From assembly GCA_001800355.1 (NCBI GenBank), contig MGVF01000038.1, forward strand, positions 1-42,591: 42,591 bases of DNA, read 5' to 3'. The notes below the pieces were generated by a model. That model did no database searches, was not told the DNA's origin, and worked only from the letters and a program-made list of their open reading frames with translations. The position numbers and the translations under genes are program-made. Below, one piece after another: positions 28,022 through 34,846 of the stretch (positions are counted from its first letter, which is position 1; every line of letters starts with the position of its first letter). This DNA comes from Elusimicrobia bacterium RIFOXYA2_FULL_50_26. GTDB taxonomy: Bacteria > Elusimicrobiota > Endomicrobiia > Endomicrobiales > XYA2-FULL-47-53.

Positions 28022-28158
28022 TCCCCCTCACCCTACCCTCTCCCCGTCGGGGAGAGGATACAAAAGCCGCCGGTTTGCCTCTCCCCCCCGGCGAGAGGAT
28101 TAAGGTGTAAAGTTATTCTTTCCTCTCCCCGACGGGGAGAGGATTAAGGTGAGGGGGA
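28022..28158. repeat. GC-rich palindromic repeat, family 2, copy 1
   Basis: The left arm CCCCCTCACCCTACCCTCTC (from 28023) and right arm ending GATTAAGGTGAGGGGGA (28142-28158) are imperfect inverted complements, and each carries a small CTCTCCCCGTCGGGGAGAG palindrome. Between them is another palindromic unit, CTCTCCCCCCCGGCGAGAG, and the spacer TAAAGTTATTCTTTC seen in the copy at 32578. It fills most of the folE-folP gap. Long G/C stems suggest a folded RNA with possible terminator or mRNA-stabilising effect. Confidence 0.8.
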
Positions 28159-29441: not shown

Positions 29442-30230
29442 ATGCAATTTATTTATTCACTCTGGTCTCATTACCTGGTTCATATCGTAGATATTTTTAT
29501 TGTATCGTATATCCTGTATCGTCTTATTCTTCTGGTAAAAGGAACGCGCGCGGTACAGATATTGCTTGGCATTTTAACCCTCGTGGCGCTCACCTTCCTG
29601 GCGCGCGAGGTTTTGCACCTGCGCACGTTAAGCTGGTTGCTTGAAAGATTCTGGCTGGCCGCGGTTATCATACTTGCGGTGGCGTTTCAGCCGGAGATAC
29701 GCTCCGCGCTTGCGCAACTGGGCAGCCACCGGTGGGGAAAAATACTTGTCCCGTCCGAGCTTGGATTCGTTGATGAAATAATAGAGGCGATTCGCCGGTT
29801 AAAGGAAGGCAAGATAGGCGCGCTTGTAGTGCTGGAGCAGGACACCGGCCTTCGCAGCCAGATAGAAACCGGCACCATCGTCAACGCCCAGGTTACCTGG
29901 GAGCTGCTGCTTTCAATATTTAATTCGCGTTCGCCGATACATGACGGCGCGGTCATAATCGAGAATGCCCGGCTTATCGCGGCCGGGTGCGTGCTGCCGT
30001 TAAGCCACGAGCAGGGCATATCCAAGGTGCTGGGTACGCGCCACCGCGCCGCGCTGGGCTTAAGTGAAATATCGGATGCCATTATAATCGTTGTTTCGGA
30101 GGAATCCGGCGCCGTAACACTGGCGCGTGAAGGCAGGCTTGAAACCGGCATTGATCCCGACGAATTGCGCCGCCGGCTTATGGATCTGTACCGCGAGCGC
30201 GGTGAAAACGCCATCCTGCGCCGGGTTTAG
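29442..30230 (+). CDS. cdaA: Diadenylate cyclase CdaA
   Basis: Makes the second messenger c-di-AMP from two ATP. Three N-terminal membrane helices (within residues 1-90) lead to the DisA_N catalytic domain: DGA (168-170, in SPIHDGAVII) and the RHR motif (GTRHRAALGLSE) are intact. The 262-residue length matches CdaA/DacA. The order cdaA - short anchor gene - glmM matches the cdaA-cdaR-glmM operon of Firmicutes and others, where CdaA activity is tuned by CdaR and GlmM. Confidence 0.96.
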   Translation: MQFIYSLWSHYLVHIVDIFIVSYILYRLILLVKGTRAVQILLGILTLVALTFLAREVLHLRTLSWLLERFWLAAVIILAVAFQPEIRSALAQLGSHRWGKILVPSELGFVDEIIEAIRRLKEGKIGALVVLEQDTGLRSQIETGTIVNAQVTWELLLSIFNSRSPIHDGAVIIENARLIAAGCVLPLSHEQGISKVLGTRHRAALGLSEISDAIIIVVSEESGAVTLAREGRLETGIDPDELRRRLMDLYRERGENAILRRV

Positions 30231-30252
30231 TTTTATTTGAAAAGGTTTTCAA

Positions 30253-30405
30253 ATGGAAAAAGAAAAAAGGGGAAGCATAGTCATAAATCACCAGCCGTTG
30301 TTAAAGCATTTAAATTTTTATAAAAATCTGAAGAATAACTGGCAGCAGAAGATCATCGCAGTGGCGCTTGCGCTTGCGTTATGGTTTTATTTGTACAAAC
30401 AATAA
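30253..30405 (+). CDS. 50-residue CdaR/YbbR-like membrane anchor protein
   Basis: A 50-residue ORF too short for most gene callers, with AAAAGG 8 bases before its ATG, 22 bases after cdaA and 4 bases before glmM. It has a basic start (MEKEKRG), then NLKNNWQQKIIAVALALALW plus FYLYK at the end: exactly the pattern of the CdaR (YbbR) N-terminus, where an N-N/x-W motif leads into the single membrane helix. The usual YbbR beta domains are absent, and the stop is immediate. Position and sequence support a genuine micro-protein anchor in the cdaR slot rather than noise. It may regulate CdaA in the membrane; that is inference. Confidence 0.75.
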   Translation: MEKEKRGSIVINHQPLLKHLNFYKNLKNNWQQKIIAVALALALWFYLYKQ

Positions 30406-30409
30406 TCCT

Positions 30410-31756
30410 ATGAAATTATTCGGTACTGACGGAATACGGGGCGTTGCGGGCAGCTACCCCCTCGATGATGCCACTATACTTGCAATCGGCGCCGCCGCGG
30501 CGGAAGTGCTGAAAGAAATTTCCCCGGACAGGGCTGTTATTATAGGGCGCGACACGCGCCAGTCCGGGGAGCATATTTCCGGGTTGTTGGAACGCGCATT
30601 CTCTTCGCGCGGAATCGCCGTTTGGGATGTCGGCGTTATACCCACGCCGGGGATCTCTCACCTTGTCAAACAGCAGCCCGTGCTTGCGGGCGTAGTAATA
30701 TCCGCGTCTCATAATCCATACCAGGATAACGGCATAAAATTTTTCGGCCATGACGGCACAAAGCTGTCCGATGCCGTGGAAAGCCGCATAGAGGCGCTAA
30801 TTGCCCTGATGAAGGCCGGTAAAGATCAGCCTTTGGCAGAAGCGGCGGGGGCTGATAAACCGGGCTTGCTTACGGACGGGTATTCCGATTTTCTTGCCCG
30901 TTCATTTACCGGCGGCACCATGGATGGCATTCGCCTTGTGCTTGATTGCGCTAACGGCGCGACTTGCGTGCTTGCGCCGGAAGTTTTCCGTTCGCTGGGC
31001 GCGCACGTTACGCTTATCAATGCCAGCCCGGACGGCAAAAATATCAACCGCGATAGCGGCTCGCTGCATCCCGGCGCGTTATCGAAAGCAACCCTGGCCG
31101 CGCGCGCGCATTGCGGCATTGCATTCGACGGCGACGGCGACAGGGTTATGTTCGTGGACGAAAAAGGCGTTGTGCGCGACGGCGATTATTTTCTTGCTAT
31201 CGCGGCGCTGCATTTGCGCGGCAGGCAGCGGCTTGTAAACAACACGCTGGTAACGACGGTCATGGCAAACCTGGGGCTTATGCGTTCCATGGAGCGTTAC
31301 GGTGTTTCCGTTCATACCACGCCGGTCGGCGACCGCTATGTTTACGAGGCAATGGTTTCATCCGGTTCCGTGCTGGGGGGCGAGCAGTCCGGCCACGTGA
31401 TCTTTAAAGAGTACCATTCCACGGGCGACGGCATATTAAGCGCGCTGCAAATGATTTCCATAATGAAAGAATCCGGCAAGCCCCTCTCGGAGCTTGCTTC
31501 CGTGATGGAAAAATACCCGCAGGTGCTTATAAACGCGCGGGTAGGCAAAAAGATACCTCTGGAATCCCTGCCGGAAACAGGCCGTTCCATAAGCGAGGCT
31601 CAAGGCACGCTTGAGGGCGACGGCAGGGTGCTTGTGCGCTACTCCGGCACCGAAAACCTTTTGCGGGTAATGATCGAAGGCCGCGACGAAAAAGTGATTA
31701 CAAAAATGGCGCACGTAATTTCGGAAACCGCCCAAAAAGAAATCGGCCATTTGTGA
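30410..31756 (+). CDS. glmM: Phosphoglucosamine mutase
   Basis: Interconverts glucosamine-6- and glucosamine-1-phosphate for peptidoglycan and LPS precursor synthesis. I start it at 30410 (MKLFGTDGIRG), the normal N-terminus, rather than at an in-frame ATG 42 bases upstream that runs into the preceding small gene. The phospho-serine is S100 in SASHNPYQDNG. The metal loop FDGDGDR and the sugar-binding GGEQSGH are present, as is RYSGTENLLRV near the end. 448 residues is typical. The upstream stop is 4 bases away, so translation is probably coupled. Confidence 0.97.
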   Translation: MKLFGTDGIRGVAGSYPLDDATILAIGAAAAEVLKEISPDRAVIIGRDTRQSGEHISGLLERAFSSRGIAVWDVGVIPTPGISHLVKQQPVLAGVVISASHNPYQDNGIKFFGHDGTKLSDAVESRIEALIALMKAGKDQPLAEAAGADKPGLLTDGYSDFLARSFTGGTMDGIRLVLDCANGATCVLAPEVFRSLGAHVTLINASPDGKNINRDSGSLHPGALSKATLAARAHCGIAFDGDGDRVMFVDEKGVVRDGDYFLAIAALHLRGRQRLVNNTLVTTVMANLGLMRSMERYGVSVHTTPVGDRYVYEAMVSSGSVLGGEQSGHVIFKEYHSTGDGILSALQMISIMKESGKPLSELASVMEKYPQVLINARVGKKIPLESLPETGRSISEAQGTLEGDGRVLVRYSGTENLLRVMIEGRDEKVITKMAHVISETAQKEIGHL

Positions 31757-31764
31757 GAATTTAT

Positions 31765-31828
31765 ATAGGGTAGAGGGTTAAGATTATTCCTTCCTCTCCC
31801 CGACGGGGAGAGGATTGAGGTGAGGGGG
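31765..31828. repeat. GC-rich palindromic repeat, family 2, copy 2 (left-truncated)
   Basis: TAGGGTAGAGGGTTAAGATTATTCCTTCCTCTC... then GACGGGGAGAGGATTGAGGTGAGGGGG, nearly identical to the second part of the copy at 32578-32754, but without the left CCCCTCACC arm. It fills the glmM-pdxJ gap. Confidence 0.75.
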
Positions 31829-31853: not shown

Positions 31854-32606
31854 ATGGTTAAACTTGGTATAAACATTGATCATGTGGCCACGGTGCGCCA
31901 GGCGCGCGGCGGCCGGGAGCCGGACCCCGTAACCGCGGCGGCGATTTGCGAGCTTGCGGGCGCAGACGGGATTACCGTACACCTGCGCGAGGACCGGCGC
32001 CATATCCAGGACAGGGACGTCGAGTTGCTTCGCAAAACGGTAAAAACTAAATTGAATCTTGAGATGGCCGCGGCCGATGAAATAATAAAAATAGCGGTGC
32101 GCTTAAAACCGGACGACGTGTGCCTTGTGCCGGAGAAGCGGCGCGAGCTTACCACCGAGGGCGGGCTTGACGTTCACGGCCGGAAAGCGCAGTTGGCAAA
32201 AGTAGTGGCTACGCTCAAGAAAGCGGGCATTTGTGTCAGTCTTTTCATAGACCCCGTTGCGGGCCAGGTGCGCGCCGCGGCCGAAATTAATGCCGATTGC
32301 GTTGAGCTTCATACAGGCGCGTACGCGCATGAGTTCGACCGCCGCATGAGGCGGCCTGTAAAGAGTGGTTTCATTGAGCTTGAACGTATCAGGGAATCGG
32401 CGGCGATGGCGCTGGATCTGGGACTTACCGTCAACGCAGGCCACGGCCTTGATTATAGCAACGTGTACCCGGTGGCCGCCATCGGCGGGATGAATGAATT
32501 AAATATCGGTTTTTCAATAATTGCGCGCGCAATGTTTACAGGCCTGGAAGAGGCGGTGCGCGAGATGAAAGTTTTATTACCCCCTCACCCCACCCTCTCC
32601 CCATAG
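31854..32606 (+). CDS. pdxJ: Pyridoxine 5'-phosphate synthase
   Basis: Condenses 1-deoxyxylulose 5-phosphate with 3-amino-2-oxopropyl phosphate in DXP-dependent vitamin B6 synthesis. The TIM-barrel motifs are clear: [17 protein letters not shown] at the start, [58 protein letters not shown] and [21 protein letters not shown]. The family normally ends within a few residues of VREMKxLL; here the last residues (LPPHPTLSP) and the stop codon come from a family-2 palindromic repeat. Activity is probably unaffected, because the end is outside the barrel. The start has no strong ribosome binding site. Confidence 0.95.
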
Positions 32607-32754
32607 GGTAGAGGGCCAAGATTATTCTTTCCTCTCCCCACGGCGAGAGGATTGAGGTCTAAAGTTATTCCTTCCTCTCCCCACGGCGAGAGGATTGAGG
32701 TCTAAAGTTATTCCTTCCTCTCCCCGACGGGGAGAGGATTGAGGTGAGGGGGAG
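32578..32754. repeat. GC-rich palindromic repeat, family 2, copy 3, with three 43-bp tandem units
   Basis: Starts CCCCCTCACCCCACCCTCTC and ends AGAGGATTGAGGTGAGGGGG, inverted complements of each other. Between them are three 43-base tandem units starting at 32618, 32661 and 32704 (AAAGTTATTCCTTCCTCTCC, then a CGGCGAGAGG or CGACGGGGAGAGG palindrome, then ATTGAGGT). The left arm overlaps the 3' end of pdxJ and supplies its last codons and stop. The copy fills most of the pdxJ-glmS gap. Confidence 0.85.
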
Positions 32755-34645: not shown

Positions 34646-34846
34646 TTTTCCTCTCCCCCGCGGCTTGCGATTATACATAAGTTCCTTCTCCCCGCCGGGG
34701 AGAAGGCCAGGATGAGGGGGAAGTCGTCGGAAACAGAACATTTGGTTCCCCCTCACCTTGATCCTCTCCCCGAAGGGGAGAGGAAACGAGTCACCGACGA
34801 TAATCTCAGACTTATGTATAATGACAAGCCCTGCGGGGAGAGAAAA
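34646..34846. repeat. Nested palindromic repeat between glmS and acpS
   Basis: The outer arms are imperfect inverted complements about 36 bases long: the left starts TTTTCCTCTCCCCCGCGGCT (34646) and the right ends CCTGCGGGGAGAGAAAA (34846), with ATTATACATAAG mirrored by CTTATGTATAAT. Inside lie family-2 pieces: TTCTCCCCGCCGGGGAGAAG (34686) and CCCCCTCACCTTGATCCTCT (34748), each with its own short palindrome. It resembles a family-2 element inserted into another inverted repeat. ORFs across it are artefacts. Confidence 0.75.

Follow-up and report, generated by a model that had tools for sequence, protein, structure and literature searches.

Introduction

Where cdaA, cdaR and glmM lie together, the diadenylate cyclase CdaA is followed by CdaR, a protein known as a transmembrane (TM) anchor carrying YbbR domains (PF07949). 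These external domains have been viewed as sensing a signal of unknown nature (PMC9259658), and the mode by which CdaR controls the c-di-AMP synthase has been described as unclear (PMC8573169). The interaction between the two proteins runs through their TM domains, and AlphaFold models of streptococcal CdaA-CdaR fusions suggest the first TM helix (TM1) of CdaA as the site (PMC10243994), while two-hybrid assays placed YbbR on the CdaA TM region (PMC6368335). Whether CdaR activates or represses is reported to vary with conditions and species (PMC8573169): co-overexpression of DacA and YbbR in Chlamydia trachomatis raised c-di-AMP 30- to 120-fold, with YbbR judged limiting (PMC12422730), and deletion of cdaR in Porphyromonas gingivalis also raised c-di-AMP (PMC9259658).

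Here, we describe the cdaR position of Elusimicrobiota, in which a single conserved membrane helix, some 30-50 residues long, is all that is left of CdaR (hereafter mini-CdaR).

Results

The cdaR position encodes a membrane anchor without YbbR domains

The window, i.e., the whole stretch of DNA analysed (42,591 nucleotides), comes from a contig of Elusimicrobia bacterium RIFOXYA2_FULL_50_26, whose genome assembly comprises 2.0 Mb in 138 contigs and is 92% complete. The locus begins with cdaA (29442..30230, + strand; TIGR00159 at E 5.8e-70, PF02457 and PF19293), the product of which has the CdaA_N TM domain, the DAC catalytic domain and the conserved DGA and GTRH motifs of CdaA. An ftsH gene lies upstream in the same direction, and downstream is glmM (30410..31756, + strand), encoding a phosphoglucosamine mutase with all four PGM_PMM domains (I-IV). 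Between cdaA and glmM lies a small open reading frame (30253..30405, + strand), which starts with ATG and encodes the 50-residue product MEKEKRGSIVINHQPLLKHLNFYKNLKNNWQQKIIAVALALALWFYLYKQ before its stop codon. The spacing is tight, with 22 nt between the cdaA stop (30230) and this ATG and 4 nt between the small frame and the glmM ATG (30410), and a Shine-Dalgarno-like AAGG (30242..30245, + strand) can be read 7 nt 5' of the start. A first-pass annotation of the window had described a 50-residue membrane anchor in the cdaR position with its own ribosome binding site and close spacing, all of which holds, the binding site as a putative one. It had also noted a typical NNW start; the N-W pair is present, but internally, at residues 29-30, and not at the N-terminus.

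The asparagine of this pair is part of a core motif, N29-x3-K33-x6-A40-x3-W44 (30337..30384, + strand), which marks the conserved face of the helix and recurs with the same spacing in other mini-CdaRs, full-length CdaR, natural CdaA fusions and the tails of a second CdaA class (see below). The membrane span is placed approximately at residues 34-48 (30352..30396, + strand) from the sequence, and the equivalent stretch of a natural fusion (L071) is predicted to be helical (residues 266-286). Only two residues follow the membrane-spanning part. At the other end, the window protein carries an N-terminal extension of 15-20 residues (30253-30298) that is absent from relatives. Initiation at an in-frame TTG (30298) would yield a 35-residue candidate version (30298..30405, + strand) of the length usual in relatives.

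No match to the YbbR model PF07949 was found at E 0.001 in the frame or elsewhere in its own genome, and the same model recovered five full-length CdaR proteins at E 1e-18 to 1e-34. The frame thus has the position downstream of cdaA and the homologous anchor of CdaR (see below) and lacks the YbbR domain, for which reason we call it a TM-only CdaR homolog. A Pfam match to NADH_dh_m_C1 (E 0.028, under the cut-off) was dismissed as a chance likeness between hydrophobic helices. The genome contains no match to the c-di-AMP riboswitch RF00379.

A selected gene throughout most of the phylum

In all 29 relatives from the same order that we first examined, cdaA is directly followed by a frame of ~32-46 codons with the motif NWQLKLLALxLAxxxW, or near variants of it, and a stop codon, a recurrence far beyond chance. 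When some 60 additional loci from the phylum were read, the same small frame (24-50 residues) turned up in most families, and a profile built from such frames scores the window's mini-CdaR at E 3e-15, with the window's own frame included in the profile. Among 95 distinct CdaA proteins forming one Elusimicrobiota clade, 84 are accompanied by a separate TM-only frame, three carry it as an in-frame C-terminal fusion and eight have none. Outside the phylum, 39 of 39 sampled CdaA genes precede a CdaR-type frame of 212-520 codons; no TM-only CdaR occurred among these sampled loci, which represent the nearest CdaA only. YbbR domains scored above the cut-off in just 5 of 341 genomes of the phylum. In four of these (G238, G247, G248 and G331) the domain sits inside a divergent class-II CdaA, and the fifth (G332) has no cdaA match. 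The anchor-only CdaR is therefore a conserved gene well beyond the window, a breadth that the original observation had understated.

At the codon level, the small frame is under purifying selection. Across 18 disjoint species pairs, dN/dS was 0.15 for mini-CdaR and 0.09 for cdaA, by simple Nei-Gojobori counts with Jukes-Cantor correction and with short cdaA overlaps kept in; 162 of 347 changes in the small frame were nonsynonymous, compared with 79% of sites (p about 1e-41 for the deficit).

These observations bear on the suggestion that the frame is a decay product, a remnant of full-length cdaR that a nonsense mutation or a sequencing error cut short and that was neutrally kept. Such an origin would explain why it is homologous to the N-terminal end of full-length CdaR and why YbbR domains are missing. 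Against this, its length and stop position are alike in dozens of genera, there is no space for a YbbR remnant with glmM beginning 4 nt on, and the frames belong to one clade with a single inferred reduction. Nor does a recent mutation (nonsense or frameshift) or an error in sequencing explain the stop, as relatives stop at the equivalent place: stop codons fall shortly beyond the helix in nearly all clade relatives examined, and none of these has a full-length cdaR reading past that point. Given the dN/dS value and the phylum-wide conservation, we regard the decay product as refuted and its residual probability as negligible. Between the two options left by the first-pass annotation, a minimal CdaA regulator or a retained decay product, the evidence favors an old, selected minimal CdaR.

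The frame could also be imagined as a leader or translational-coupling peptide that does no more than carry ribosomes from cdaA to glmM, so that its protein sequence would barely matter. Its close spacing and the ATGA-type overlaps with cdaA seen in many relatives would fit such a role. The downstream gene, however, varies: besides glmM, it can be pdxJ (G003, G295, G297-G299 and G222) or another gene, and the small frame is kept in these genera as well. Selection acts at the amino acid level on one helix face, and the peptide is retained even when fused to the C-terminus of CdaA, leaving a pure coupling function highly improbable.

Mini-CdaR shares a conserved helix face with full-length CdaR

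Homology to the CdaR anchor was assessed by searching the mini-CdaR profile against 41 cdaR-position frames, taken from loci of Nitrospirota, Bacillota, Myxococcota, Thermodesulfobacteriota and Oligoflexia/Bacteriovoracaceae, together with 2640 other frames. The profile matched the N-termini of the full-length CdaR proteins from these other phyla (best E 3e-10, most below 0.01). The decoy set also held genuine mini-CdaRs and four CdaR-like frames (L177, L182, L185 and L190), which matched, and all remaining decoys gave E values above 0.5. A search of the PDB with the same profile returned a single, spurious match to RNA polymerase, and no PDB entry was found in which the CdaR TM helix or the CdaA TM domain is resolved.

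Conservation along the helix follows a 100-degree periodicity both in mini-CdaRs (p 0.018) and in full-length CdaR (p 0.002). The conserved face of the former comprises N29, K33, position 37 (L/V), A40 and W44, and full-length CdaR uses the same positions plus 36. The pattern [NHD]-x3-[KR]-x6-[ASG]-x3-W is present in 76 of 82 mini-CdaRs, 33 of 41 full-length CdaRs, 15 of 18 class-II CdaA tails and all three fusions, compared with two spurious matches in the 2640 decoys (300,000 residues). In sequence terms, N-x3-K-x6-[AS]-x3-W is thus common to mini-CdaR and the N-terminal part of full-length CdaR, and conservation falls on the same side of the helix in both.

The N-terminal part of mini-CdaRs is positively charged (mean +3.6), and by the positive-inside rule the helix would be oriented N-in, C-out, matching CdaR. 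The two differ in what follows the helix: the tail beyond the conserved tryptophan has a median length of 6 residues (12 or fewer in 73 of 82 mini-CdaRs), a rule across most of the phylum. Tails this short rule out extracytoplasmic sensing of the YbbR type for most members.

Natural fusions and joint loss tie mini-CdaR to CdaA

In three genomes (G012, G032 and G042), mini-CdaR forms the C-terminus of CdaA within a single open frame. As in the streptococcal fusions, the CdaR TM segment is joined to the CdaA C-terminus, but the streptococcal proteins are described as large, i.e., with YbbR domains (PMC10243994), whereas Elusimicrobiota fuse the helix alone. An AlphaFold model of the G012 fusion as a monomer has a mean pLDDT of 84.5, and its mini-CdaR portion is modeled, with moderate confidence, as helices spanning residues 251-264 and 266-286 (block means 56-83).

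A second, divergent class of CdaA in the phylum, which we term class II, carries the same CdaR-like helix as a C-terminal TM tail. Its N-x3-K-x6-[AS]-x3-W helix terminates the protein in one family (f26) and is otherwise followed by ~100 residues resembling one YbbR domain; a model of one fusion of this type reached a lower confidence (74.6). The class occupies a separate, divergent branch and does not have glmM downstream, and at several loci the next gene is DHH-family phosphoesterase-like. Class-II loci comprise L077-L079, L083, L086, L090 and L092-L094 as well as L076, L080, L082, L084, L085, L088, L091 and L095.

Loss of the two genes is also coupled. In family f15 (G071-G160, membership inferred from list numbering), about 89 of 90 genomes lack both cdaA and mini-CdaR. 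The one f15 genome with cdaA, G140 (L219, L220), is also the only one with a mini-CdaR below E 0.001, which adjoins glmM at a contig end. In Endomicrobiellum-type genomes with broken cdaA, stop-interrupted in G039 and G041 and fragmentary in G043, the mini-CdaRs (L216, L217 and L218) are truncated before the conserved tryptophan. These three are reduced endosymbiont genomes, in which loss of c-di-AMP synthesis is apparently ongoing.

Small TM proteins are frequent regulators of transporters or proteases, and mini-CdaR might accordingly be a TM microprotein with another partner, such as FtsH or a transporter, that is merely co-transcribed with cdaA; the upstream ftsH gene, in the same direction, would suit this idea. 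Yet mini-CdaR tracks cdaA in presence and absence, occurs fused to CdaA and has the conserved face of CdaR, so that a different partner appears improbable.

The eight CdaA proteins without any mini-CdaR indicate that the helix is not strictly essential. In these mini-less lineages (L072-L074 and L101 in f10; L116 in f21; L081, L128 and L129 in f22), the gene after cdaA is gyrB-like, or glmM follows directly. Over eight conserved TM1 columns of CdaA, 36% of cells are changed in the eight proteins without mini-CdaR compared with 5% in those with it, a contrast that spans two loss events; in G232 and G301, both among the eight, TM1 is little altered. TM2-3 columns differ little (5% in both groups), and DAC domain columns are intermediate (18% compared with 4%). 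The relaxation of TM1 but not TM2-3 suggests TM1 of CdaA as the contact site of mini-CdaR.

A probable single reduction in Elusimicrobiota

In a tree of 160 CdaA proteins, calculated with a quick method and rooted at the midpoint, the 84 proteins with a separate mini-CdaR, the three fusions and the eight without form one group with a support of 99. The other side contains the CdaA proteins with full-length CdaR downstream and the class-II CdaA. The simplest reading of these sequences is one reduction of CdaR at the base of the Elusimicrobiota clade, followed by two losses (in f10 and in f21/f22) and two fusions (G032 with G042, and G012). Because the root of the CdaA tree is not fixed, the reverse order, in which the helix is ancestral and YbbR domains were gained later, is also possible.

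Discussion

We interpret mini-CdaR as a minimal CdaR that acts as a fourth TM helix, packs on TM1 of CdaA and supports assembly or activity of the cyclase, and assign this reading a probability of about 0.7. The encoded product would be CdaR's N-in/C-out membrane helix, with no YbbR domain attached. After insertion into the cytoplasmic membrane, the face formed by N29, K33, L/V37, A40 and W44 would pack against the first TM helix of CdaA, completing the cyclase membrane domain as its fourth helix. In this position, mini-CdaR may stabilize or orient CdaA such that the cytoplasmic DAC domains form the active assembly. With no extracytoplasmic domains, there would be no YbbR-style sensing of periplasmic ligands, and regulation would come instead from the stoichiometry or turnover of mini-CdaR and from GlmM.

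The direction of the effect on CdaA activity is uncertain, since activating as well as repressing effects of CdaR are on record (PMC8573169). Mini-CdaR could be a minimal CdaR that mainly inhibits or scaffolds, e.g., by limiting CdaA oligomerization or assisting GlmM, and would then not serve chiefly as a helix for activation or assembly. The repressor reports and the rise in c-di-AMP upon cdaR deletion in P. gingivalis (PMC9259658) speak for this, whereas the Chlamydia data favor activation (PMC12422730), and the sequence itself decides nothing between the two; we consider a mainly inhibitory or scaffolding role unlikely, if the most credible of the competing explanations. A supporting fourth helix is our preferred reading.

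More broadly, a phylum that retains a selected, sometimes CdaA-fused TM helix amounts to a natural experiment that parts the helix from the YbbR domains, and it speaks for the helix as the core of CdaR. This suggests that what CdaR cannot do without is the helix and not the external sensor domains it usually carries. On a stronger formulation, which we rate at even odds, the TM helix would be the essential and universal portion of CdaR, serving the CdaA cyclase as a fourth TM subunit, with YbbR domains dispensable and Elusimicrobiota following a helix-only rule, separate or fused. As a system of 30-50 residues that is readily mutated, mini-CdaR lends itself to study of the CdaA-CdaR interface, and N29, K33, A40 and W44 are named residues that could be tested in better-studied bacteria.

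In the open-access papers searched, we found no paper on Elusimicrobia and c-di-AMP, and no TM-only CdaR, fusion of such a helix to CdaA or mapping of the shared face, although a description elsewhere is possible. Within the literature searched, the phylum-wide TM-helix-only CdaR, the helix-only CdaA fusions and the shared conserved face are therefore new.

As a separate observation on the window, the intergenic palindrome CTCTCCCCGACGGGGAGAGG resembles a REP-type repeat, with 15 matches compared with none expected by chance; copies are located at 28037-28142, 31793-31813, 32594-32613, 32717-32737, 34685-34705 and 34763-34783.
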